Positions 2,139 through 10,629 of a stretch of 10,629 bases of DNA are shown here, one piece after another (position 1 is the stretch's first letter; each line of letters begins with the position of its first letter). The stretch spans positions 1 through 10,629 of the forward strand of contig JAUVCP010000040.1 in assembly GCA_030590765.1 (NCBI GenBank). The letters are read 5' to 3'. Under the pieces are notes generated by a model, which was not told where the DNA came from, made no database searches, and saw only the letters and a list, made by a program, of their open reading frames with translations. The stretch comes from Flavobacteriaceae bacterium. GTDB lineage: Bacteria > Bacteroidota > Bacteroidia > Flavobacteriales > Flavobacteriaceae. The position numbers and the translations under genes are program-made.

Positions 2139-3383
2139 ATGCTAAAAGATGATAAAATATTTTATGAATTGTGCTTTAACTCTTTATCAGAAGGTATATG
2201 TATCACCAATGAAAGAGGAGATATTATTATGAATAATATTTCCTTGGAAAGGATTTTTAAATACGATAAAGGAGAACTTCAAGATAAGAGCATTAGTTTA
2301 ATAATTCCACAACAATACAAAGAAAGACACCATAGCCATATTGAGAATTATTTTAAAAACCCTTCGGAGTTTTACAAGGGGGAGAAGCGTGAGTTTTATG
2401 GCCAATGTAAAAATGGAGATATAATTCCGATTGAGATTGGATTGAGTTATTTGAAGTACAAAGGCAATACCTATGCCAAAGCAATGATCTCTGATATTTC
2501 AAAAAGGAGAGGCAAGGAAAACAAAATTATAGAAGATAAACAGCTACTTGAAAAAGAAGTTAAAAAGAAAACAAAGAAATTATCAAGATCCGTTAAGAAA
2601 TTAAAACGGACCAATTTAAAACTTGAGGAAGAAATACAAAATAGAATTTATGCAGAAGAGAAGGCAAAAAAAGCATTCCAAAAAGAAAAAGAGTTAAGTA
2701 TTTTAAAAACAAAGTTTTTGTCATTGGCATCTCATGAATTTAAAACTCCCTTGAGTGGAGTGCTTTCTTCGGCTATTCTAATTGAAAAATATAACCAAAA
2801 CAATCCAAATCAAAGAATAAATGACCATGCACTAACCATTAAAAAACTTGTTAAGCAATTAAATACAGTTTTAGATGATTTTTTGTTTTTAGATAAAACA
2901 GAAAATCAAAAAATTAGCTATAACTATTCTAAATTTTTGTTTTCCAATTTTTTAAATAAAATTGTTCACAATACAAAGCCAATATTAAAAAAGGGTCAAA
3001 TAATTACATATACTGCAAATAATGAGGATGTTAAAGTATTTTTAGATAAGAAAATCATTGAGATTATTTTTAGAAATATTTTGTATAATGCCATAAAGTA
3101 TTCTTCCGAAAAATCAAAAATTGAAGTTAAGTTCCATACCAATTCTTATATCAAAGTTACAATTATAGATGAAGGTATTGGAATTCCGAAACAAGATCAA
3201 AAACATGTTTTTGAGCGATTTTTTAGAGCCAAAAATGCAATTCATTTTCAAGGAACAGGAATTGGATTGAATATTGTTAAACATCATATTGAAAAATTTG
3301 GAGGTACAATTCAATTTAAAAGTAAAGAGAATGTGGGAACAACTTTTACGATTAAATTACCATTAAAAGCTAGCATAAATTAG
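2139..3383 (+). CDS. Soluble PAS-domain sensor histidine kinase
   Basis: A 414-residue hybrid-free kinase with no transmembrane segment, so probably cytosolic. Residues 1-125 form one PAS domain. A long charged coiled coil follows (about 125-190), then the HisKA dimerisation helix with phospho-acceptor His199 in SHEFKTP, and an HATPase_c domain with N box (N313, N317), G1 box DEGIGI (344-349), F box VFERFF (357-362) and G2 box GTGIGL (372-377). All catalytic boxes look intact. In the PAS domain, His64 and Arg84 align without gaps with the heme ligand His200 and oxygen-contacting Arg220 of Bradyrhizobium FixL (20 residues apart in both); many heme-free PAS domains share part of this pattern, so heme binding is only a hypothesis. 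The response regulator starts 21 bp downstream and is the expected partner, very likely in one transcript. The ATG lies 22 bp after the candidate MITE. Confidence 0.92.
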   Translation: MLKDDKIFYELCFNSLSEGICITNERGDIIMNNISLERIFKYDKGELQDKSISLIIPQQYKERHHSHIENYFKNPSEFYKGEKREFYGQCKNGDIIPIEIGLSYLKYKGNTYAKAMISDISKRRGKENKIIEDKQLLEKEVKKKTKKLSRSVKKLKRTNLKLEEEIQNRIYAEEKAKKAFQKEKELSILKTKFLSLASHEFKTPLSGVLSSAILIEKYNQNNPNQRINDHALTIKKLVKQLNTVLDDFLFLDKTENQKISYNYSKFLFSNFLNKIVHNTKPILKKGQIITYTANNEDVKVFLDKKIIEIIFRNILYNAIKYSSEKSKIEVKFHTNSYIKVTIIDEGIGIPKQDQKHVFERFFRAKNAIHFQGTGIGLNIVKHHIEKFGGTIQFKSKENVGTTFTIKLPLKASIN

Positions 3384-3404: not shown

Positions 3405-4436
3405 GTGAAAAAAAAGATATTACTTATTGAAGATGACGCAATTGTAAGAGAAAACACGGCTGAAATTTTAATACTTGCAAATTATAATGTTTTAACTTCT
3501 GATAATGGTAAAGATGGTATTACAAAAGCAAATACATATCAACCGGATTTGATCATATGTGATATTTTAATGCCTGAACTTGATGGTTATGGGGTTTTAC
3601 AAATTATGATGCGCAATGAAGAGTTACAAAAGATCCCTTTTATTTTTATGACTGCAAAAACCAATCATTCCGATATTAGAAAAGGGATGAATCTTGGGGC
3701 GAGTGATTATATTACAAAACCTTTTGAAGAATCAGAATTATTAAGCGCAATTGAAAGCAGGTTAAAAAGGAATGAGATCTTTGAAAAGAAGACCAGAAAA
3801 GAAGACAGTGGTGTAATTAAAAAGATTCGGTTTGAAGATCTGGAAAAAGTCTTTAAGAACAAAAAGAGATTTTTATACAAAAAAAGGAAAACGATTTATT
3901 GTAAAGGAAATAGCAGTAATTTTATTTTTTATGTAGTAAGTGGTTTGGTTAAAACCTACAGTACACACGAAGACGGGAAGGAGTTGATAACCGGTATTTT
4001 TAAAAAACATGATTTTTTTGGTTTTACATCACTTACAAAGAATATACCTTATCATGAGAATGCTGTTGCAATTAAAGAGAGTAAATTATTAAAAATAAGC
4101 AAAAAAGAGATCTATGATCTGGTAATTCAAAATCCACAGCTTGCAATTAATTTCTTTGATATACTTACCGAAAATCTAAATAGTTTAAAAGAAAGTTTGA
4201 TCCATTTGGCCTATGATTCTGTAAGAAAAAAAACAGCAGAATCTATTTTATTAATGAATAATAAAAGCAAAAAGAATAATGTAGAAATATCAAGATATGA
4301 TCTGGCAAGTTTGATTGGTATTGCAAAAGAAACACTTATCAGGGCACTAACTGAATTTAAAGAAGAAGGTATTATTGAAACAGATAGAAATTCAATTAGA
4401 ATATTGGATATTGAAAAACTGGAAAATATCAAGTAA
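3405..4436 (+). CDS. Response regulator fused to a CRP/FNR-type sensor and helix-turn-helix domain
   Basis: A 343-residue transcription factor starting at GTG. Residues 1-125 are a receiver domain with acidic pocket E9/D10/D11, phospho-acceptor Asp53 (IICDILMP), Thr83 and Lys105 (ITKPFE). Residues about 145-265 resemble a cNMP-binding beta-roll plus dimer helix, and about 270-335 form the Crp-type winged helix, with recognition helix IAKETLIRALTEF. The Glu309 and Arg313 positions match the E-xxx-R that CRP and FNR use to read TGA. The usual cAMP phosphate-binding Arg-Ala/Thr-Ser/Ala motif is missing (the region reads PYHENAVA), and there is no FNR-like Cys cluster. Control therefore probably runs through receiver phosphorylation by the preceding kinase, not through cAMP or an Fe-S cluster (inference). 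A matching palindrome begins only 2 bp after the stop codon. It is the best candidate activator of the four tandem-box promoters downstream. Confidence 0.9.
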   Translation: MKKKILLIEDDAIVRENTAEILILANYNVLTSDNGKDGITKANTYQPDLIICDILMPELDGYGVLQIMMRNEELQKIPFIFMTAKTNHSDIRKGMNLGASDYITKPFEESELLSAIESRLKRNEIFEKKTRKEDSGVIKKIRFEDLEKVFKNKKRFLYKKRKTIYCKGNSSNFIFYVVSGLVKTYSTHEDGKELITGIFKKHDFFGFTSLTKNIPYHENAVAIKESKLLKISKKEIYDLVIQNPQLAINFFDILTENLNSLKESLIHLAYDSVRKKTAESILLMNNKSKKNNVEISRYDLASLIGIAKETLIRALTEFKEEGIIETDRNSIRILDIEKLENIK

Positions 4437-4438
4437 TA

Positions 4439-4504
4439 CTGATCATAATCAATAAAAACGCTGATGACGGTCAATGTATTTCATATTTGAATGTATTAAA
4501 TTTA
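4439..4504 (+). promoter_or_regulatory. Tandem FNR-like box promoter A (universal stress gene)
   Basis: Box 1 CTGATCATAATCAA (4439-4452) and box 2 CTGATGACGGTCAA (4461-4474) start 22 bp apart. Box 2 is followed by TGT, and 22 bp after it comes TAAATTTA (4497-4504), one mismatch from the Bacteroidota -7 TAnnTTTG. The expected start of transcription is near 4508, about 20 bp before the ATG of the Usp gene. The layout is identical in length and order to the promoters at 5782, 6070 and 6994. It begins directly after the stop codon of the CRP-fused regulator. Confidence 0.78.
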
Positions 4505-4529
4505 GAACGGAATATTAAATACTAGAATT

Positions 4530-5372
4530 ATGAAAAATATACTTCTACCAACTGATTTTTCAACAAATTCTTTAAATGCAATTCGATATGCCAAAGATTT
4601 TTTAAAAGATGAGGATTGTACATTTTATTTGTTGAATATTTATCGCATGCCATATCTGGAGCATGATGAATTAATGATGTACAACGTAGAAAAACTAGCT
4701 TCACTTGAAAACACATTGTTAAAATCATCTCAAAGAGATTTAAAAGCAACTGTTAAAAAGATTAATTTTAGTTCTAATCACAAAATTAAACTCTTGAGTG
4801 ATTATAGTTTTTTTATTGATTCAGTCAAACAAAAAATTGATGAATTCAATATTGACCTTATCATTATGGGAACCAAGGGGGCGACTGGAGCCAAGGAGAT
4901 TTTTATGGGATCAAATACGGGTGATGTGATCATGAAAACTGATTGTGATGTAATGGCCGTACCAGATAAGGCAACTTTTAAAACACCAAAAGAAATTGTT
5001 TTTCCAACCGATTTCAGATTACTTTATGAGGAGGAGGATTTAGAGATCTTGAAAAAAATAGCAATTAAAAATGGGTCAAATATCAGGGTTTTATATGTTC
5101 AAAATGATGATCCACTTGATACCGAACAAAAAGCAAATAAAAAAGATCTGGAATGGGGTTTTGATGATCTAAATTATAGTTTTCACACTTTAACCAATAC
5201 TGATTTTGAATCTGCTGTGAATTGTTTTACACAAAGTAGAGGTGATGTAGATATGATTGCAATCATTGCAAAGCACTATAATATTTTTCAACGATTATTC
5301 TTTAAACCGAAAGTAGAGGAACTTAGTTTTCATACCAAGATTCCTTTGTTAGTCTTACATAAAAGTAAATAG
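4530..5372 (+). CDS. Tandem-domain universal stress protein (UspA family)
   Basis: A 280-residue cytosolic protein made of two Usp folds. Domain 1 (residues 1-146) begins MKNILLPTDFS and carries the full nucleotide-binding signature G-2x-G-9x-G-S (G114, G117, G127, S128), typical of ATP-binding Usp proteins. Domain 2 (about 152-278) begins EIVFPTDF and ends IPLLVLHK, but at the equivalent loop reads IAKHYNIFQRLF without the glycine motif, so it probably does not bind ATP and may be structural or regulatory. Usp proteins support survival under growth arrest, hypoxia and other stress; the exact biochemical role varies. It is driven by tandem-box promoter A and is followed after 6 bp by a small membrane protein gene, so the two form an operon. 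Confidence 0.92.
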   Translation: MKNILLPTDFSTNSLNAIRYAKDFLKDEDCTFYLLNIYRMPYLEHDELMMYNVEKLASLENTLLKSSQRDLKATVKKINFSSNHKIKLLSDYSFFIDSVKQKIDEFNIDLIIMGTKGATGAKEIFMGSNTGDVIMKTDCDVMAVPDKATFKTPKEIVFPTDFRLLYEEEDLEILKKIAIKNGSNIRVLYVQNDDPLDTEQKANKKDLEWGFDDLNYSFHTLTNTDFESAVNCFTQSRGDVDMIAIIAKHYNIFQRLFFKPKVEELSFHTKIPLLVLHKSK

Positions 5373-5378
5373 TAAAAT

Positions 5379-5765
5379 ATGGAATTATCTGTTTTTTTAG
5401 CTAAATTTTGGGGTTGGTACTTAATTACTTTTTTTGTTTTGTTTATTTTTTATCCAAAAAGGATAAAGCAATTATTTGACTTTACAAAAGATGAAAAGTT
5501 TATAATGATCATATCCATTATGGCTATTACGTTTGGCTTGCTTAGTATCATTGCTCACAGTTTGTGGGTTACTGATTGGCGTTTAGTGATCACACTTTTC
5601 GGATGGTTTGTTTTTATAAAAGGAGTGGTTCACTTTTCATTTCCACAACTTGCATTAAAATGGGTTGAAAAAGTTGACTTTAAATGGTTTCAGTTTATGA
5701 TGTTTTTGTCTTTTCTTATCGGAATTATTTTACTCAATCAGGCATATGGTTTGGTACAATTTTAA
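5379..5765 (+). CDS. Small four-helix integral membrane protein, function unknown
   Basis: 128 residues, strongly hydrophobic, with four predicted membrane segments: about 8-25 (KFWGWYLITFFVLFIFYP), 41-62, 67-86 and 104-123. Loops are short; the basic one (PKRIKQ, after helix 1) would be cytosolic by the positive-inside rule. There is no signal peptide and no conserved catalytic motif that I recognise. The start ATG lies 6 bp after the stop codon of the universal stress gene, which implies co-transcription and translational coupling from promoter A. This makes it a likely member of the same stress response, perhaps acting on the inner membrane, but that is inference from position only. Confidence 0.8.
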   Translation: MELSVFLAKFWGWYLITFFVLFIFYPKRIKQLFDFTKDEKFIMIISIMAITFGLLSIIAHSLWVTDWRLVITLFGWFVFIKGVVHFSFPQLALKWVEKVDFKWFQFMMFLSFLIGIILLNQAYGLVQF

Positions 5766-5781
5766 TAAAAAGTTATTTTTA

Positions 5782-5847
5782 TTGATGAGAATCATCATTT
5801 TCGTTGACCGTCGTCATTGTTTTGTAATTATTGGCAATTTACCTTTA
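5782..5847 (+). promoter_or_regulatory. Tandem FNR-like box promoter B (candidate sRNA)
   Basis: Box 1 TTGATGAGAATCAT (5782-5795) and box 2 TTGACCGTCGTCAT (5804-5817) again start 22 bp apart. The last T of box 2 begins a TTG (5817-5819) at the -33 position, and 22 bp after box 2 stands TACCTTTA (5840-5847) as the -7 element. Expected start near 5851. No coding region of useful length follows before the hairpin at 6029-6054, so the product appears to be a non-coding RNA. Confidence 0.78.
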
Positions 5848-5851
5848 CACC

Positions 5852-6060
5852 ATATTTAGAAGCAAGGATTGTAGAAATACGAATTGTGGAAAAGTATAGA
5901 TTGAACAAGAGGATGATTGAGTTCAATTGAAAGGAGTGAGAAGTTCTAAAGATTTTTAAAAAAGGTTAATTGAACCGAAAGGAGAAAAGAGAACAATTAA
6001 AAATAGTTTAGAAAAGATCACACCAGAGGAACAGGAGGTAATCACCTCCTGTTCTTGTTA
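5852..6060 (+). ncRNA. Candidate regulated small RNA (about 200 nt)
   Basis: Between promoter B and a strong intrinsic-terminator-like hairpin lies a gene-free stretch. The longest in-frame possibilities are a 14-codon frame from the GTG at about 5886 (with a 5-codon internal ATG frame), so it does not look like an mRNA. The RNA is purine-rich and contains seven GGA triplets, including two GAAAGGAG copies and ACAGGAGGT in the terminator stem, plus short hairpins such as GGTTAATTGAACC and the palindrome TTCAATTGAA. Promoter C starts only 10-16 bp after the terminator, which argues that transcript B ends there. Both ends are predicted only; targets are unknown. The alternative is a long leader reading through to the gene at 6203, made less likely by the terminator. 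Confidence 0.55.
6029..6054 (+). terminator. Strong hairpin terminator of the candidate sRNA
   Basis: GAACAGGAGGT (6029-6039) pairs perfectly with ACCTCCTGTTC (6044-6054) around a 4-nt AATC loop, giving an 11-bp stem extendable by a wobble and an A-T pair. A short T-rich tail (TTGTTAT) follows. The tail is weaker than a classical T run, so termination efficiency is uncertain. The right arm contains ATCACCTCCT, the same ten bases found at the 3' end of many bacterial 16S rRNAs, and the left arm is the matching Shine-Dalgarno-like AGGAGGT. Confidence 0.7.
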
Positions 6061-6069
6061 TGGTCTAAA

Positions 6070-6135
6070 TTGATAACAATCAATAGTTTTATTGACGCCC
6101 GTCATTGTATCCTATTATTTTCGGTTTTAACTTTA
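6070..6135 (+). promoter_or_regulatory. Tandem FNR-like box promoter C (PepSY-like secreted protein)
   Basis: Box 1 TTGATAACAATCAA (6070-6083) is a perfect match to the classical FNR consensus TTGAT-N4-ATCAA. Box 2 TTGACGCCCGTCAT (6092-6105) starts 22 bp later, with TTG of the -33 position overlapping its last base, and TAACTTTA (6128-6135) follows after 22 bp. Expected start near 6139, giving a leader of about 63 nt to the ATG at 6203. Confidence 0.8.
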
Positions 6136-6202
6136 TACTGTGTGAATTTTTTGGATCTGAAAGACAGAATCCAAGACAATATTAATTTAAAACCTTTTAA
6201 TC

Positions 6203-6727
6203 ATGAAAAAAGTAATGTTAGGTTTGTTTGTATTTGGACTAACCCTCCAGCTTGGATTGACCTCCCAATTAAATGCGCAGGTCATTAATGATGGTATGTT
6301 GCCTGAAATTGAAGTTCGCTATATGAATTATAAATACTTAAATAGTGTTGGTAATGCAGCTGCACCAATTGAGGTTAAAGAACTTGAACGGAAAGTAGCA
6401 AATTTTGATATTAAAGGATCAGAATTTTATCAGGATGATTACGATTTCTATTCTGTTAATTTTTATATTCCTGATGGTCATATACTTGCAGCTTATGATA
6501 AAGATGGAAAACTTGTAAGAACTATTGAGAAGTTTAAAGATATTACACTTCCTAAATCTGTTTTAAATTCTGTTTCCAAACGATTCCCTGGATGGGCTAT
6601 CTATCAAGATGTATACAAAGTTAATTACCATAAAGATAAAGGTTCTACACATGTGTACAAAATGAGACTATCAAACGGAGATAAAAAAATGAGAGTAAAA
6701 ACAGATGAAAATGGAAATTTCATTTAA
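6203..6727 (+). CDS. Secreted PepSY-like (DUF2874-type) protein
   Basis: A 174-residue exported protein. Residues 1-25 form a signal peptide ending LNA before QV, a good signal peptidase I site without a lipobox, so the mature protein is probably periplasmic or released. The C-terminal half (about 115-174) shows the PepSY-like pattern: LPKSVLNSVSKRFPGW, then a strand pair with VYKMRLSNGDKKMRVKTDENG, as in the BLIP/PepSY-like beta-alpha domains common in Bacteroidota. An earlier part (about 80-110, FYIPDGHILAAYDKDGKLV) may be a diverged first copy. Function is unknown; family members are thought to bind or inhibit extracytoplasmic partners. Flavobacterial relatives are sometimes misnamed as nucleotide adenylyltransferases, which the sequence does not support. 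It has its own tandem-box promoter (C), so it likely belongs to the same stress regulon. Confidence 0.75.
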   Translation: MKKVMLGLFVFGLTLQLGLTSQLNAQVINDGMLPEIEVRYMNYKYLNSVGNAAAPIEVKELERKVANFDIKGSEFYQDDYDFYSVNFYIPDGHILAAYDKDGKLVRTIEKFKDITLPKSVLNSVSKRFPGWAIYQDVYKVNYHKDKGSTHVYKMRLSNGDKKMRVKTDENGNFI

Positions 6728-6771
6728 CCCGGATTATACAGGTTTTAGGTTTGTACAGATGTGAGACATCG

Positions 6772-6806
6772 AAACTTTTAGATATAGGCTTCTATTTCAA
6801 AAGTTT
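6772..6806 (+). terminator. Possible hairpin terminator after the PepSY-like gene
   Basis: AAACTTTT (6772-6779) pairs with AAAAGTTT (6799-6806), with an inner ATAG/CTAT pairing around GCTT. It lies 45 bp past the stop codon. The stem is AT-rich and lacks a real T run, so it could be a weak terminator or a 3'-UTR stabilising fold. The next 150 bp, to 6960, hold only a tiny ORF and no other clear signal. Confidence 0.35.
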
Positions 6807-6896
6807 TGTAACGAAGTAGATGTGCAAAGATAAAAAAAGCTACACCCAAAATAGGGTATTATGTTTTTGTATAAAATACATATTATATAGTTGAAT

Positions 6897-6962
6897 ATGA
6901 GTTTATTAGATCATATAAAAATAATTTTCGATGAATATTACGGGTTAATTCTGATTTTATAA
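6897..6962 (+). CDS. Possible 21-residue hydrophobic peptide (doubtful)
   Basis: ATG at 6897 opens a 21-codon frame with an amphipathic to hydrophobic peptide (MSLLDHIKIIFDEYYGLILIL) whose TAA stop overlaps the first base pairs of the terminator at 6961-6992. That tight link to a terminator is what one sees for real small genes and leader peptides. There is no ribosome-binding site and no clear promoter (the nearest -7-like string is imperfect), and such short frames arise by chance in AT-rich DNA. No family recognised. Confidence 0.2.
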   Translation: MSLLDHIKIIFDEYYGLILIL

Positions 6963-6992
6963 AAAGGGCTATTTGAAAAGATAGCCTTTTTT
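6961..6992 (+). terminator. Intrinsic terminator upstream of the hsp20 promoter
   Basis: AAAAAGGGCTAT (6961-6972) pairs with ATAGCCTTTTTT (6981-6992) around an 8-nt loop, with one G-U wobble. The arm ends in six T, so it works as a classical rho-independent terminator, and its A-rich left side makes it potentially bidirectional. Box 1 of promoter D begins 2 bp further on, insulating hsp20 from upstream transcription. Confidence 0.8.
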
Positions 6993-6993
6993 A

Positions 6994-7059
6994 TTGATCA
7001 GGATCAGTCTTTTTACTGATGGTCATCATTGTTTATTATCTTTTCAAAAATTAAATTTG
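6994..7059 (+). promoter_or_regulatory. Tandem FNR-like box promoter D (hsp20)
   Basis: Box 1 TTGATCAGGATCAG (6994-7007) and box 2 CTGATGGTCATCAT (7016-7029) start 22 bp apart. TTG at 7029-7031 sits at the -33 position, and 22 bp after box 2 stands TAAATTTG (7052-7059), an exact match to the -7 consensus TAnnTTTG. Expected start near 7063, about 34 bp before the hsp20 ATG. This is the best -7 element of the four. Confidence 0.82.
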
Positions 7060-7096
7060 GGTGTTAGAATGAATATTAATTAAAAATTATTGTGTC

Positions 7097-7540
7097 ATGA
7101 CAATTGTAAAATTTAAAAAGCACCGTTTACCTTGGTATGATAATATGTTTACCGACCTTTTAGGCACGGACAGATTACTTACCAATGACTTTTTTAGAGA
7201 TGACAAATGGATGCCGGCAATGAATATCAAAGAAAATGACGAAAACTTTGAAATTGAATTGGCAGCTCCAGGATTCAATAAAAAAGATTTTGAGATCACC
7301 ATTGAAAATGGAATACTTCATATTTCTGCTGAAAAAAAAGTGGAAAAAGAAGAAAAAGAAGAGGATTTCACTCGTAAAGAATTTAGCTACACCTCATTTA
7401 CCCGTTCCTTTACCCTACCGGATAATGTAAATGATGAGGACAAGATCAATGCAAAATACAAAAATGGTATTTTAAAATTGACCTTGGCTAAACTACATGA
7501 AGATGAAATTACGCACAAAAGGATAATTGAAATTTCTTAG
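7097..7540 (+). CDS. Small heat shock protein, Hsp20/alpha-crystallin family
   Basis: A 147-residue ATP-independent holdase chaperone that keeps unfolding proteins soluble in the cytosol. The alpha-crystallin domain spans about 38-131, with the opening MPAMNIKENDENFEIELAAPGF, the middle strand ENGILHISAEKK, a highly charged Lys/Glu loop (80-94), and the family signature AKYKNGILKLTLAK near its end. The C-terminal tail RIIEIS holds the IxI motif used for oligomer assembly. The N-terminal arm is short (about 37 residues). The length is normal for the family. It is preceded by an intrinsic terminator and the tandem-box promoter D, and followed by a terminator hairpin, so it is probably transcribed alone. 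No HrcA-type CIRCE element is visible, consistent with control by the boxes. Confidence 0.95.
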   Translation: MTIVKFKKHRLPWYDNMFTDLLGTDRLLTNDFFRDDKWMPAMNIKENDENFEIELAAPGFNKKDFEITIENGILHISAEKKVEKEEKEEDFTRKEFSYTSFTRSFTLPDNVNDEDKINAKYKNGILKLTLAKLHEDEITHKRIIEIS

Positions 7541-7627: not shown

Positions 7628-8065
7628 GTGAAAAAAGATAAAAAAGAAAAATTTAGAAACAAATTGTTCAAACTGCATGAACAAAATGTCACATGGTTGA
7701 CAGAATTGGAATTTGTACAAGACGAACATATTTTTTTAGAAAACTTGTTAAGTGCTCATTTTTTAGACCTGAGTTCAGAAAAATTGTTTGAGCCTACCAA
7801 AAAACTAATTCATAGGTTGAATGATGTTGAGAAAATGGATAATGAGTTGGAAGATGCTATCCAAACGCACAATAAACACGTAGCAACTTTACTTGAAAGT
7901 TTACAGTTAGATGGGAAAAAAGATGTGGTAAAAGAGCATCAATCCATTAAAAGGGATTTTGAGACTTTTTATTTAAAATTCAAGTTTGTAAAAAAGAAAA
8001 TATACAATATGATCAAGGAAATCATGAAAGAGCACAAACAGAAATTATTGATCAGCAATAGGTAA
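7628..8065 (+). CDS. All-helical cytosolic protein, function unknown
   Basis: A 145-residue protein starting at GTG, rich in Lys, Glu, Leu and His, without signal peptide, membrane segment or a motif that I recognise. It appears to be a bundle of long amphipathic helices: roughly 5-45 (including HEQNVTWLTELEFVQDEHIFL), 52-92, and 97-140, with a basic end. The spacing of His and Glu residues is loosely reminiscent of helical-bundle proteins, but no metal-binding pattern is clear. It lies 88 bp after hsp20 beyond a hairpin, with no tandem boxes and no good -7 element before it, so it may depend on read-through from hsp20. Position suggests a role in the same stress response; this is inference only. 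Confidence 0.75.
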   Translation: MKKDKKEKFRNKLFKLHEQNVTWLTELEFVQDEHIFLENLLSAHFLDLSSEKLFEPTKKLIHRLNDVEKMDNELEDAIQTHNKHVATLLESLQLDGKKDVVKEHQSIKRDFETFYLKFKFVKKKIYNMIKEIMKEHKQKLLISNR

Positions 8066-8184: not shown

Positions 8185-9345
8185 CTATTTCTTTGATTTA
8201 TTATAGAATTGCATTCCTAAATTTGCTTTTTTATCATGATCAAATAAAGTAGCATTGTCCCAGTGAGAGCCCTTTCCCCAAAGAGTACTGCAACCCGTAG
8301 AAACCCAGGCAGGCTCCCAATATACAAGTCCTTTGCCTCCTGATTTTTCAATTACATCTTGCAGTTTAATTAGATAATCTAGCTGTCCTTGTTCAGTAGC
8401 AGGAAACCCATCTATCAGAGCATTACTATCTAATATATTATTAGCTTCATCAGCATTTGTTAAGGTAAATGGATAGGCAGTTTCAGCTACCATCAATTTT
8501 TTACCGTATGTATTTATTAAGTTTCGGAATGGAACAGAAACATTATCCAATGTATACTCAGACCACTTTGGATAATAAGATAATCCTATCCAATCAAAAT
8601 CTGTAACGCCATTTTTAGTTGCTTGTTCAAACCACCATAAACCATTTTCTGGCTGAGCAATATGAAGCATAACTTCCACTTTTTTATTTTGAGTTTTTGA
8701 GATATCTCTCACTGCTTTAATTCCTTTATTTAATAAATAAGCGTTTCTGTCCCAGTCTATAGGCCATTCTAAAACATCTTTTTGTAAAATCATTGGGTTT
8801 GTTTCGTTGCCTATTTGAACAATTTCAGGTAAAAGATTTGCAATTGCCAAATTGTTCAATATTTCGTAGGTATAGCTATAAAGCAATTCTCCCAGAGCTT
8901 CTTTATTACTAAATTCACTTTCCCAGGCCAATGGAATTTTTTGTTGTGAAGGATCTGCCCATGTATCTGAATAGTGAAAATCGAGTAATACATTCATTCC
9001 TGTTGCTTTTGCTCTTTGAATGGATTTTTTCACATCTTCATAGTTTGAATAATTAGTCCAGGATGGGTTATGCCATAGTCGTAAACGAACTAAGTTGGCA
9101 CCTGCATCCTTAAAAATTAAATAAGGATCTTTTACAACATCATTTTTATCCTTATATATTGCTCCGCAATCTTCCATTTCATTTATATACGATAAATCTG
9201 CTCCAAAATAAAATGAAGGAGGTTTTTCGGGCAATGGATCCGGAGGTTGAGTTGACTCATTTTGAGAAGAACAACTTAATGAATTAAGTAATATGGCTAT
9301 GAATATAAATTTCCTCATATAATTAGTTATTACACTTTTCCTCAT
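8185..9345 (-). CDS. GH53 arabinogalactan endo-1,4-beta-galactosidase, lipoprotein
   Basis: A 386-residue enzyme that cleaves internal beta-1,4-galactan bonds, as in pectic type I arabinogalactan. A short hydrophobic signal ends in SLSC (Cys25), a relaxed Bacteroidota lipobox, so it is probably anchored to the outer membrane or periplasmic side; a Pro-rich linker follows. The GH53 TIM barrel runs from about 46 to 382, with hallmark blocks FYFGADLSYINEME, GANLVRLRLWHNP, LLDFHYSDTWADPSQQ, the acid/base Glu181 in IGNETN, and the nucleophile Glu288 in VAETAYP; near the end VYWEPAWVST closes the barrel. All key residues are present. Two start codons are possible: the ATG at 9345 and the ATG at 9318 (Met10), both followed by AGGAAA; the second gives a more typical lipoprotein signal. 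It starts 3 bp after the amylase stop codon, so it is in the same operon. Confidence 0.92.
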   Translation of the reverse strand: MRKSVITNYMRKFIFIAILLNSLSCSSQNESTQPPDPLPEKPPSFYFGADLSYINEMEDCGAIYKDKNDVVKDPYLIFKDAGANLVRLRLWHNPSWTNYSNYEDVKKSIQRAKATGMNVLLDFHYSDTWADPSQQKIPLAWESEFSNKEALGELLYSYTYEILNNLAIANLLPEIVQIGNETNPMILQKDVLEWPIDWDRNAYLLNKGIKAVRDISKTQNKKVEVMLHIAQPENGLWWFEQATKNGVTDFDWIGLSYYPKWSEYTLDNVSVPFRNLINTYGKKLMVAETAYPFTLTNADEANNILDSNALIDGFPATEQGQLDYLIKLQDVIEKSGGKGLVYWEPAWVSTGCSTLWGKGSHWDNATLFDHDKKANLGMQFYNKSKK

Positions 9346-9348
9346 ACT

Positions 9349-10629
9349 TTAATAATTTTGAAGTTTTAAAATAAGAGATTCTAGCGGGGCGATTTTTATT
9401 CTCATAGTAGACATATCTTTTTTAATCTTCAAATTAGTGGTGATTTTATCGTACAATTGATCTTTAAACTGATAATTACCTTCTTTTAAATTCCATTTTG
9501 TAATTACAGATTCAGGCAGGTGCAGATCAAACTCATAACTTTCTATTGCGTCAAAATTGCTAATGATGATAAGTTTTTCATTATCATTCCATCTTACAAA
9601 AGAAAACAATTTGTGGTTATACTTTTTTGTATTGGAGCGATTATAGCTGTGAATTTCTTGATAATTTCCCATAAGGGAGCTGCTGTTGATCGTGAAATTT
9701 AATAATCGTTTATAGAAACCTCGCAATTCCTTTTCTTGTTCGCTAGATTGCCCTCCATCAAATTTTTTATGATTCATCCATCTTTGGTAGTGAGGTACTC
9801 CAATATAATCAAATATCGAAGTTCGGGTAGGTTTGCCAAAACCGGCATCTTCACTACCTGGTTCTCCAACCTCTTGTCCGAAATAGATCAAAGTTGGCGA
9901 TGTACTTATAGTTGCCGATACAACCATAGCTGGTTTCCCTTTTTTTGCCGATCCTGCAAAATCAGGACTTGCTATACGTTGTTCATCATGATTTTCTAAA
10001 AAATGCAACATATTATGCTCTATATCTGAATGATCCTTTTGAATCTTCGTAAGATTATCGGTTAAACCATGACCCTGCATAATATGTTTTATGGTGTCAT
10101 AAAAAGCAACTTTATCATATAAATAATCCATTTTTCCTAAATGGATATAGTCACGGTACATGGCCGGGTTATATACTTCTGCCAAAAGAAAAGCATCTGA
10201 ATATTTTACCTTTATGGATGAATTCATATAACTCCAAAACTCAACAGGAACCATTTCAGCCATATCAAATCGAAGTCCGTCTACCCCTTTTTCCAACCAA
10301 AATAATGCAATATCTTTAAATTTGATCCATGAATCAGGTAAGTCTTTGTCCTTCCAAAATGCTAAATGTTCTTCGTATCCTTTTTTATCAAATCCTTCTG
10401 GTAATTGGTCAAAGTCTTTAGTTCCATCAGGCTGCACGCCATAATTTATTTTTACTGTTTCATACCAGTCGTAAAAATCTGGTTGTGCCAATCGAGATCC
10501 GTTACCAGTCCATTTTGCTGGAATTTCTTTAAATTTTCCATCTGCCAAAGGATGTTTTTCTCCACCAAGGGGCAAATAGTTGTTTTTCCAAACAGGCACT
10601 TTAAAATTCTCACCTACTACATAATAATA
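9349..10629 (-). CDS. GH13 alpha-amylase family enzyme, C-terminal part (5' truncated)
   Basis: The frame stays open to the window edge (ten further codons precede the GTG at 10599), so the true start lies outside. The visible 427 or so residues contain the second half of the GH13 barrel and the C-terminal beta domain. Numbered from the GTG, Asp112 in GVDGLRFDMAE is the nucleophile, Glu141 in FLLAEVYNP the acid/base, and His204-Asp205 in FLENHDEQR the transition-state stabiliser; these are conserved regions II, III and IV. The enzyme should hydrolyse alpha-1,4-glucans such as starch or maltodextrin; the subfamily and location cannot be judged without the N terminus. The C-terminal domain (about 320-416) is a normal beta-sandwich-like end. 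It is followed after 3 bp by the GH53 gene. Confidence 0.9.
   Translation of the reverse strand, partial: YYYVVGENFKVPVWKNNYLPLGGEKHPLADGKFKEIPAKWTGNGSRLAQPDFYDWYETVKINYGVQPDGTKDFDQLPEGFDKKGYEEHLAFWKDKDLPDSWIKFKDIALFWLEKGVDGLRFDMAEMVPVEFWSYMNSSIKVKYSDAFLLAEVYNPAMYRDYIHLGKMDYLYDKVAFYDTIKHIMQGHGLTDNLTKIQKDHSDIEHNMLHFLENHDEQRIASPDFAGSAKKGKPAMVVSATISTSPTLIYFGQEVGEPGSEDAGFGKPTRTSIFDYIGVPHYQRWMNHKKFDGGQSSEQEKELRGFYKRLLNFTINSSSLMGNYQEIHSYNRSNTKKYNHKLFSFVRWNDNEKLIIISNFDAIESYEFDLHLPESVITKWNLKEGNYQFKDQLYDKITTNLKIKKDMSTMRIKIAPLESLILKLQNY

Follow-up and report, generated by a model that had tools for sequence, protein, structure and literature searches.

The window analyzed here is a 10,629-nucleotide (nt) stretch of DNA from a Flavobacteriaceae bacterium, whose own assembly amounts to 2.44 Mb and is 67% complete. 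It holds a stress locus with four promoters, A to D, in which tandem palindromes of the FNR type stand at a fixed distance from one another and from a -7 box. The features of the locus are as follows, with the +1 positions of the promoters derived from the published position of the -7 box rather than from mapped starts.

2139..3383, + strand: PAS-histidine kinase, likely the partner kinase (Pfam PAS_9, HisKA, and HATPase_c)
3405..4436, + strand: response regulator (receiver, cNMP-binding fold, and Crp-type helix-turn-helix), proposed reader of the sites (Pfam domains and co-occurrence with the pairs)
4440..4504, + strand: promoter A, sites 4440-4451 and 4462-4473, -7 box 4497-4504, predicted +1 near 4509
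4530..5372, + strand: universal stress protein (Usp), proposed target of A (Pfam Usp, 5.1e-21; order kept in relatives)
5379..5765, + strand: 128-amino-acid (aa) protein after Usp (no Pfam family; beside Usp also in genomes G191, G192, G205, and G017)
5783..5847, + strand: promoter B, sites 5783-5794 and 5805-5816, -7 box 5840-5847, predicted +1 near 5852
5852..6057, + strand: putative structured non-coding RNA of ~205 nt, 3' hairpin 6029-6054 (fold and covariation)
6071..6135, + strand: promoter C, sites 6071-6082 and 6093-6104, -7 box 6128-6135, predicted +1 near 6140
6203..6727, + strand: 174-aa protein with a signal-peptide-like start (by eye), proposed target of C (no Pfam family; kept as the C target in relatives)
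6995..7059, + strand: promoter D, sites 6995-7006 and 7017-7028, -7 box 7052-7059, predicted +1 near 7064
7097..7540, + strand: Hsp20 small heat-shock protein, proposed target of D (Pfam HSP20, 7e-25)
7628..8065, + strand: 145-aa protein after Hsp20 (sub-threshold Pfam match only; position conserved)

Each promoter unit runs in the same order: a 12-base core TGAYN4RTCA, 10 nt, a second core, 23 nt, and the box TAnnTTTR. The core centers are 22 bp apart in all four, and the box starts exactly 23 nt past the second core in 4/4 (equal to 22 nt past the 14-mer counted in the preliminary description). The pairs at 4440-4473, 5783-5816, 6071-6104, and 6995-7028 match TGATN4ATCA-N10-TGAYN4RTCA with no mismatches, confirming the four promoters, their order, and their spacing as first described; with up to three mismatches allowed, the window gives eight matches (four places, on both strands), compared with a mean of 0.82 and a maximum of 6 in 200 shuffles. 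The promoters had been called identical, which is true of their layout but not of their bases, and the differing spacers bear out the view that they are not a recent local duplication. Because start-site mapping in Flavobacterium psychrophilum places the sigma-A box TAnnTTTG at -12 to -5 (PMC9723704, in the accessible part of that study), the downstream core would lie at -47 to -36, centered at -41.5, and the upstream core at -69 to -58, centered at -63.5. On these predicted starts, the window promoters have a palindrome near -41.5, as expected for an activator at a class II promoter. Class II CRP/FNR promoters of Escherichia coli likewise have a TTGATN4ATCAA-type palindrome at -41.5 beside the -35/-33 region, but here it is joined to a Bacteroidota -7/-33 promoter and to a second site at -63.5 throughout the set. 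For comparison, among the 23 directly activated E. coli FNR promoters whose start is known, 19 carry sites at -41.5 ± 4, and one site is present in 89% of FNR peaks of the direct regulon (PMC3688515, in the part available).

To see how widely the pair recurs, TGAYN4RTCA-N10-TGAYN4RTCA was scanned over 100 genomes (22 of the same genus, which is probably Lutimonas, 39 others of the same family, and 39 from other families of the order), with the reversed pattern as a control. The same-genus genomes contain 161 perfect pairs, in 17 of the 22 and at 0 to 23 per genome; the 39 other family genomes in the scan set have none, and the reversed pattern gave none in all 100. In the complete genome G011, 23 palindrome pairs have a gap between 0 and 30, and in 21 of them it is 10. 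A genome of another genus in the family, G205, has three pairs in its 3 kb, with the same locus order. The set had been described as a local regulon, and although the regulon itself is supported, it is not only local but genus-wide, with a likely fifth site on another contig of the window's own assembly. The rest of that assembly has no further perfect pair, one place with one mismatch, and seven places with two. The one-mismatch pair (G000:C3:2245-2278; L005 1501-1534, - strand) is probably a fifth promoter of the set, because it is intergenic, has TACCTTCA at offset 23, and is followed after ~60 nt by the start of a 186-aa lipoprotein-like frame. The seven two-mismatch places all lie within open frames of at least 430 codons and look like chance.

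The pairs are linked to promoters. We read 63 perfect pairs in context (21/21 in G011, 20/23 in G013, 18/18 in G004, and the four of the window), and 61 lie outside any open frame of at least 80 codons, with the other two inside a same-strand frame of 106 codons and an antisense frame of 88 codons; the pairs are thus not as frequent in coding regions as upstream of genes. TAnnTTT is at offset 23 in 40/63 on the side assigned as downstream, a figure biased upward by the use of the offset-23 score to choose the side, and in 0/63 on the other side; other offsets on the assigned side reach at most 6. Positions -35 to -33 have T in 80%, T in 87%, and G or T in 55% and 33% of sites, respectively, a profile that resembles the -33 TTG element typical of promoters in this phylum. 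The sites are of the FNR type TTGATN4ATCAA: their core is so by construction, and 60% of the 63 have the outer T at -70 and 66% have it at -48. Spacer positions are near random across the 63 sites; the spacer within the upstream site is A-rich (82% at -64, 69% at -62, and 90% at -61). The earlier proposal of a conserved paired geometry on one DNA face, linked to promoters as a regulon, is supported by these data. That the pairs arose by chance, or were spread by recent promoter copying, is extremely improbable; near-identical promoters do occur at some G011 and G013 targets, but the zero count for the reversed pattern, the context reading, and the spacer profile refute this explanation for most sites, and the layout is kept through divergent orthologues.

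A downstream frame was assigned by script to 56 of the 63 pairs; three of the seven unassigned are B-type promoters of the conserved locus, and the frame assigned to promoter B of the window is spurious, overlapping C. Targets with a Pfam name include Usp, Hsp20, dodecin, a molybdopterin oxidoreductase, an AMP-binding enzyme, a putative esterase, and leucine-rich repeat (LRR) and InlB-like repeat proteins, one of which carries a secretion-system sorting domain; several targets have no Pfam family. We note that G013:C4:68534-88000 (L114) and G011:C1:586000-597000 (L128) hold clusters of genes for LRR/InlB-like surface proteins, several of which share near-identical paired-site promoters with the -7 box TTCCTTTA.

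Across 15 loci of the genus, the recurring order is kinase, regulator, promoter A with Usp, 128-aa gene, promoter B, promoter C with the secreted protein, and promoter D with Hsp20. By eye, a kinase-like frame of similar length and N-terminus is ahead of the regulator in 13/15 of these loci (not in G003 or G017) and in 11/13 other loci (not in L204 or L208). Individual loci depart from this order: G010 has no B and its stretch stops after C; G003 keeps B and Hsp20, with kinase, Usp, and C not seen; the G002 contig stops after Usp; G017 is interrupted by masked stretches and has its B unit and RNA ~42 kb away; G005 has D without Hsp20 after it; and G008 has two B units.

The likely reader of the paired sites is the neighboring product of 3405-4436, a fusion of receiver and CRP domains in one chain (Pfam Response_reg 1.4e-27, cNMP_binding 3.7e-18, and HTH_Crp_2 3.9e-15); the same three domains are found in the 120 homologues listed, of 7,987. 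The 343-aa protein has a candidate phospho-acceptor aspartate at position 53 of the translation, and a kinase is encoded next to it. The label "FNR-like" given to the palindromes at first is apt for the DNA, but this likely reader is not a 4Fe-4S FNR, because it has just two cysteines and lacks the four ligand cysteines of such proteins. A candidate precedent for a receiver-CRP fusion, PMC8547461, is not such a fusion, judging by the part of that source available. Pairs are present in 15/15 genus genomes with a full-length regulator and in 2/7 without one (Fisher P = 8e-4, a value that ignores kinship). Moreover, in a tree of 33 regulators, drawn midpoint and with 3 of 36 loci giving no usable row (G003, G043, and Sphingobacterium), the family's 15 regulators from tandem-site loci cluster into a single group (100/100), with G205 inside and G088 outside. 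We infer from these patterns in the sequences that the 3405-4436 protein would both bind the paired sites and activate from them. In G028 (L205 6169-12001), a homologue of the regulator lies beside NorB, an ScdA/hemerythrin protein, and a heavy-metal ATPase, and this neighborhood hints at low oxygen or nitric oxide (NO) as the signal.

The genomes carry other Crp-type proteins, several with ~26-33% identity to the C-terminal half of the regulator, and family genomes without the fusion protein also have single-site promoters; together with the two genus genomes that have pairs and no detected fusion gene, this gives some room for a different Crp/Fnr paralogue, an oxygen- or NO-sensing FNR/DNR-like protein, that reads single and paired sites alike, the receiver-CRP gene being a mere neighbor. 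We regard this as unlikely, because neither pairs nor a fusion protein are seen in G009 (86% complete) and G021 (97% complete), which have 27 and 25 single-site matches, respectively, because the family's tandem sites go with one group of the fusion protein, and because paired and single sites differ in spacer composition. The last point comes from G011, which has 53 single-core matches at a spacing of 23; of these, 30 were fetched (5 paired and 25 single), and the GC content of N4 in the -41.5 site is 60% for the paired class and 7% for the single class (P = 1.7e-4). By eye, single-site targets in G011 look anaerobic (2-oxoacid:ferredoxin oxidoreductases, PPDK, and HemA). This N4 difference and the single-site targets lead us to suggest that two site classes seem to coexist in this one genome.

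Single sites are widespread in the family. The 15 family genomes with the regulator have 450 single-core matches at spacings of 18 to 28 before TAnnTTTR, 325 of them at 23, compared with 75 in the reversed control summed over all 11 spacings. The promoters of the RNA described below likewise have one palindrome in G028, G048, G054, G191, and G192, which stands 23 nt ahead of a box that reads TAnnTT and does not always extend to TAnnTTT. Because these relatives in other genera have one site at -41.5, the second site at -63.5 looks derived and the single site older. The pairing had been put forward as the novelty; however, the downstream site is in the ordinary class II position, and since family relatives use it alone, the novelty lies in the extra site upstream. 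As a whole, the layout would be a form of class II Crp/Fnr control that is new in having a second site. The earlier statement that no Bacteroidota regulon of this architecture has been described agrees with our search, as neither a paired Crp/Fnr layout nor the promoter-B RNA was found for Bacteroidota in the literature covered, which excludes most subscription journals.

Promoter B appears to precede no protein gene, a point missed in the preliminary description, and would drive a structured non-coding RNA. A coding origin of 5852-6057 was rejected, since no + strand frame of at least 20 codons starts and ends within it (four extend across its ends). The predicted fold of strand 5848-6060 has -52 kcal/mol, compared with -30.9 ± 3.6 for shuffles (z = -5.95). 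An alignment of 13 copies (A1), gathered as the stretches following B and aligned by sequence, has 36 pairs, 21 of them changed on both sides, and 90.0% of cells are paired, compared with 80.4% in shuffles and 44-55% in slid versions, over which A1 has the advantage that the structure was derived from it. The A1 covariation score was reached by 0 of 500 shuffles and the number of further pair types by 7 of 500. A model built on this RNA, R1, finds 14 strong copies, spread over 13 of the 22 genus genomes; each of these 13 genomes is one of the 15 that carry the regulator, and the 7 lacking it have no copy. Of the copies, 13 of the 14 are the model's own sequences, chosen by their paired site. 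The independent finds are the G017 copy and, outside the genus, G205 (E = 4.5e-14), each following a perfect pair; among the 14 copies, 12 follow a perfect pair and two (the first copy of G008 and that of G012) a one-mismatch pair. Matches on the opposite strand of the same hairpin were treated as echoes and not counted.

With Rfam 15, no family reached its gathering score in the window and six related loci, and the best match at loose thresholds (E = 0.13; 17.2 bits against a gathering score of 128) was rejected. The RNA appears to be an undescribed family, having no Rfam 15 match and no counterpart found in the literature covered; the F. psychrophilum transcriptome, for which many small RNAs are described (PMC9723704, in the part available), was outside this comparison. 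Of 149 genomes in a sample of the family, 11 had R1 matches with an E value of 0.01 or less, and two of these 11 belong to the genus. Matches in G169, G174, and G178 (E = 5e-4 to 2e-3) were not counted as members, there being no regulator or Usp in the 3 kb fetched. The 3 kb of G178 include a 25% match to the 145-aa protein, and an R1 match at G013:C3:944610 (E = 6e-4) has no related gene within its 3 kb.

The same stretch lies upstream of C in most genus loci, and might belong to gene C as an extended leader or an attenuator instead of being an RNA in its own right, a reading to which the short T runs after the hairpin in the window and G005 would lend support. We consider this improbable: a separate paired promoter stands between the hairpin and the start of C, a run of at least 5 T comes after the 3' hairpin in 11/13 copies (all except the window and G005), and G003 has B and the RNA but shows no C. 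Furthermore, in other genera RNA modules come after Usp and the 128-aa gene, and nothing matching C was seen in the loci compared.

In those genera the RNA occurs as tandem modules behind one class II site, after Usp (G048) or after Usp and the 128-aa gene (G054, G191, and G192). G192 has four modules spaced 181-200 nt apart (L168 1396-2174, - strand) behind a single class II site, G054 has three spaced 179-180 nt apart, and G191 and G048 have two each, the second of G048 being short. An alignment of ten modules (A2) has 32 pairs, 12 changed on both sides, with 94.0% paired compared with 88.0% in shuffles, and its covariation score was reached by 0 of 500 shuffles. A model built from A2 alone, without Lutimonas sequences (R2), finds loci outside both alignments in G028 (8e-8), G057 (3e-9), and G205 (2e-7), the sense strand in two of the four Lutimonas loci given (4e-5 and 1.6e-3), and, with filters off, the window RNA at 5905-6059 (E = 5e-5); at default filters it returned 7 of its own 10 modules, and the missing three (G191 and G192) appeared with filters off. 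R1 in turn finds G028 (1e-6), G057 (1e-5), G205, and array members in G192 and G191 (9e-5 to 0.03); on the other arrays it matched G054 on the opposite strand only, L203 not at all, and G048 in the family sample (5e-4). The best E value in the outsider loci L046, L047, L055, and L057 was 0.04. From these moderate model scores and the same gene order, the Lutimonas RNA and the array RNAs would be homologous. The RNA is not found beside every such regulator, since 18 of the 24 non-genus regulator loci searched with R2 gave no sense match at E <0.01 (several of these loci are only 4 kb long), and in G057 the RNA and the nearby regulator copy lie on opposite strands.

Taking the whole together, we consider it fairly probable that the 66-bp units are activator-dependent promoters through which two dimers of the receiver-CRP regulator control a stress package. 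A phosphorylated dimer of the 3405-4436 protein would occupy the -41.5 palindrome, directly against the -33 TTG and the sigma-A RNA polymerase in the style of class II CRP/FNR promoters, and a second dimer would adjoin it at -63.5, two helical turns upstream and on the same face, where it could stabilize the first dimer or add a polymerase contact. The kinase of 2139-3383 would set the phosphorylation state of the regulator. The core output would be the stress package (Usp, Hsp20, the secreted protein, and the structured RNA), and further targets would lie at other places in the genome. A lone site at -41.5 would represent the older family state, with the second site gained in the Lutimonas lineage of the regulator, and this second site may separate the regulon from single-site FNR-type promoters in the same cell. 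The differing spacers of the two sites, A-rich in the upstream one, leave a possible minority alternative, in which the palindrome at -63.5 serves repression or antiactivation, or belongs to a second regulator, the pair acting as a logic gate rather than through cooperative activation; however, both sites have the same core in a fixed 22-bp phase, and the retention of the pair across such a large number of promoters fits a single protein that binds twice. More speculatively, the RNA under receiver-CRP control, built of ~180-200-nt modules (one in most Lutimonas, two to four in tandem in some other genera), might use its repeated hairpins as a dose-adjustable sponge or base-pairing stress regulator, Lutimonas having replaced copy number by a tandem-site promoter that needs two cooperating phospho-dimers and is insulated from single-site FNR promoters.

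Several observations weigh against activation of such a regulon by the receiver-CRP protein. G006 and G020 have 4 and 8 pairs, respectively, and the regulator was not found in their assemblies (61% and 84% complete). The window's own genome has just four perfect pairs and one with a mismatch, promoter C has TGAG instead of TGAY in seven genus loci, and the N4 comparison in G011 includes just 5 paired sites. The hairpin of the window RNA at 6029-6054 has a weak T run and was not listed by the terminator scan. Outside the family, within the order, 10 pairs are present in 7 of the 39 genomes. Seven of these were fetched (L060, L061, L062, L079, L080, L081, and L082; those of G073 and G084:C39 are near-identical), and none is within a frame of at least 60 codons and two have TAnnTTTR at offset 23; the layout may therefore occur sparsely beyond this lineage, and is perhaps not confined to it. 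One order-level pair, in G088, is 3.7 kb from a regulator homologue outside the tandem-site group.

The components of the proposed system have parallels elsewhere. Class III tandem CRP/FNR promoters also bind two dimers, but their spacing varies between promoters, whereas here it is fixed at 22 bp over 161 sites of one genus. The FixLJ-FixK2 system of rhizobia has the same parts (a PAS kinase, a receiver output, an FNR-like site, and stress protein targets), but here the receiver and Crp domains are fused in one protein, and in Bacteroidota. The DosR dormancy regulon of actinobacteria similarly places Usp and Hsp20, along with the regulated RNA DrrS, under two-component control; its sites and phylum are different, DosR being of the LuxR type. 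FnrS of E. coli and PhrS of Pseudomonas are small RNAs under a Crp/Fnr-type site near -41.5. For fnrS the FNR site is at -42.5 (PMC3688515, in the part available). The window RNA would resemble these in its predicted promoter with a Crp/Fnr-type site; its structure is conserved and its hairpin lacks a good T run. It differs in having no Rfam match at gathering score and in its tandem modules in other genera. Lastly, HcpR, which regulates hcp, has the delta-proteobacterial motif wyTTGACnnnnGTCAArw and the Bacteroides motif GTAACnnnnGTTAC; the former resembles variants of our downstream site, and no paired HcpR layout is seen in the accessible part of that source (PMC1274295).

Transcription activation in Bacteroidota has been little studied, and promoters of this phylum are unlike those of E. 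coli. The locus offers a compact, testable case, with a fixed -41.5/-63.5 two-site code and a two-component activator that is likely a single protein, and its one-site relatives mean that promoter swaps could address both the function and the origin of the second site. In addition, the locus draws attention to an apparent structured RNA family of Flavobacteriaceae, with no Rfam 15 match, in a stress locus with Usp and Hsp20.

A few further features of these loci were noted. Near the Usp cluster of G054 (L201 1527-3781) are genes for a beta-CASP metallo-beta-lactamase-type RNase-like protein and an ATP-cone/Mrr-type protein, and N-termini like theirs recur, by eye, in several family loci. Upstream of the kinase, the window has an inverted repeat at 2007-2120 (attaaggcttgctgaaa ... 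tttcagcaagccttaaa), ~110 bp across, that by eye resembles a miniature inverted-repeat transposable element. At the other end, 8185-10629 on the - strand encodes two proteins that look by eye like glycoside hydrolases, and similar frames follow the locus in several relatives.

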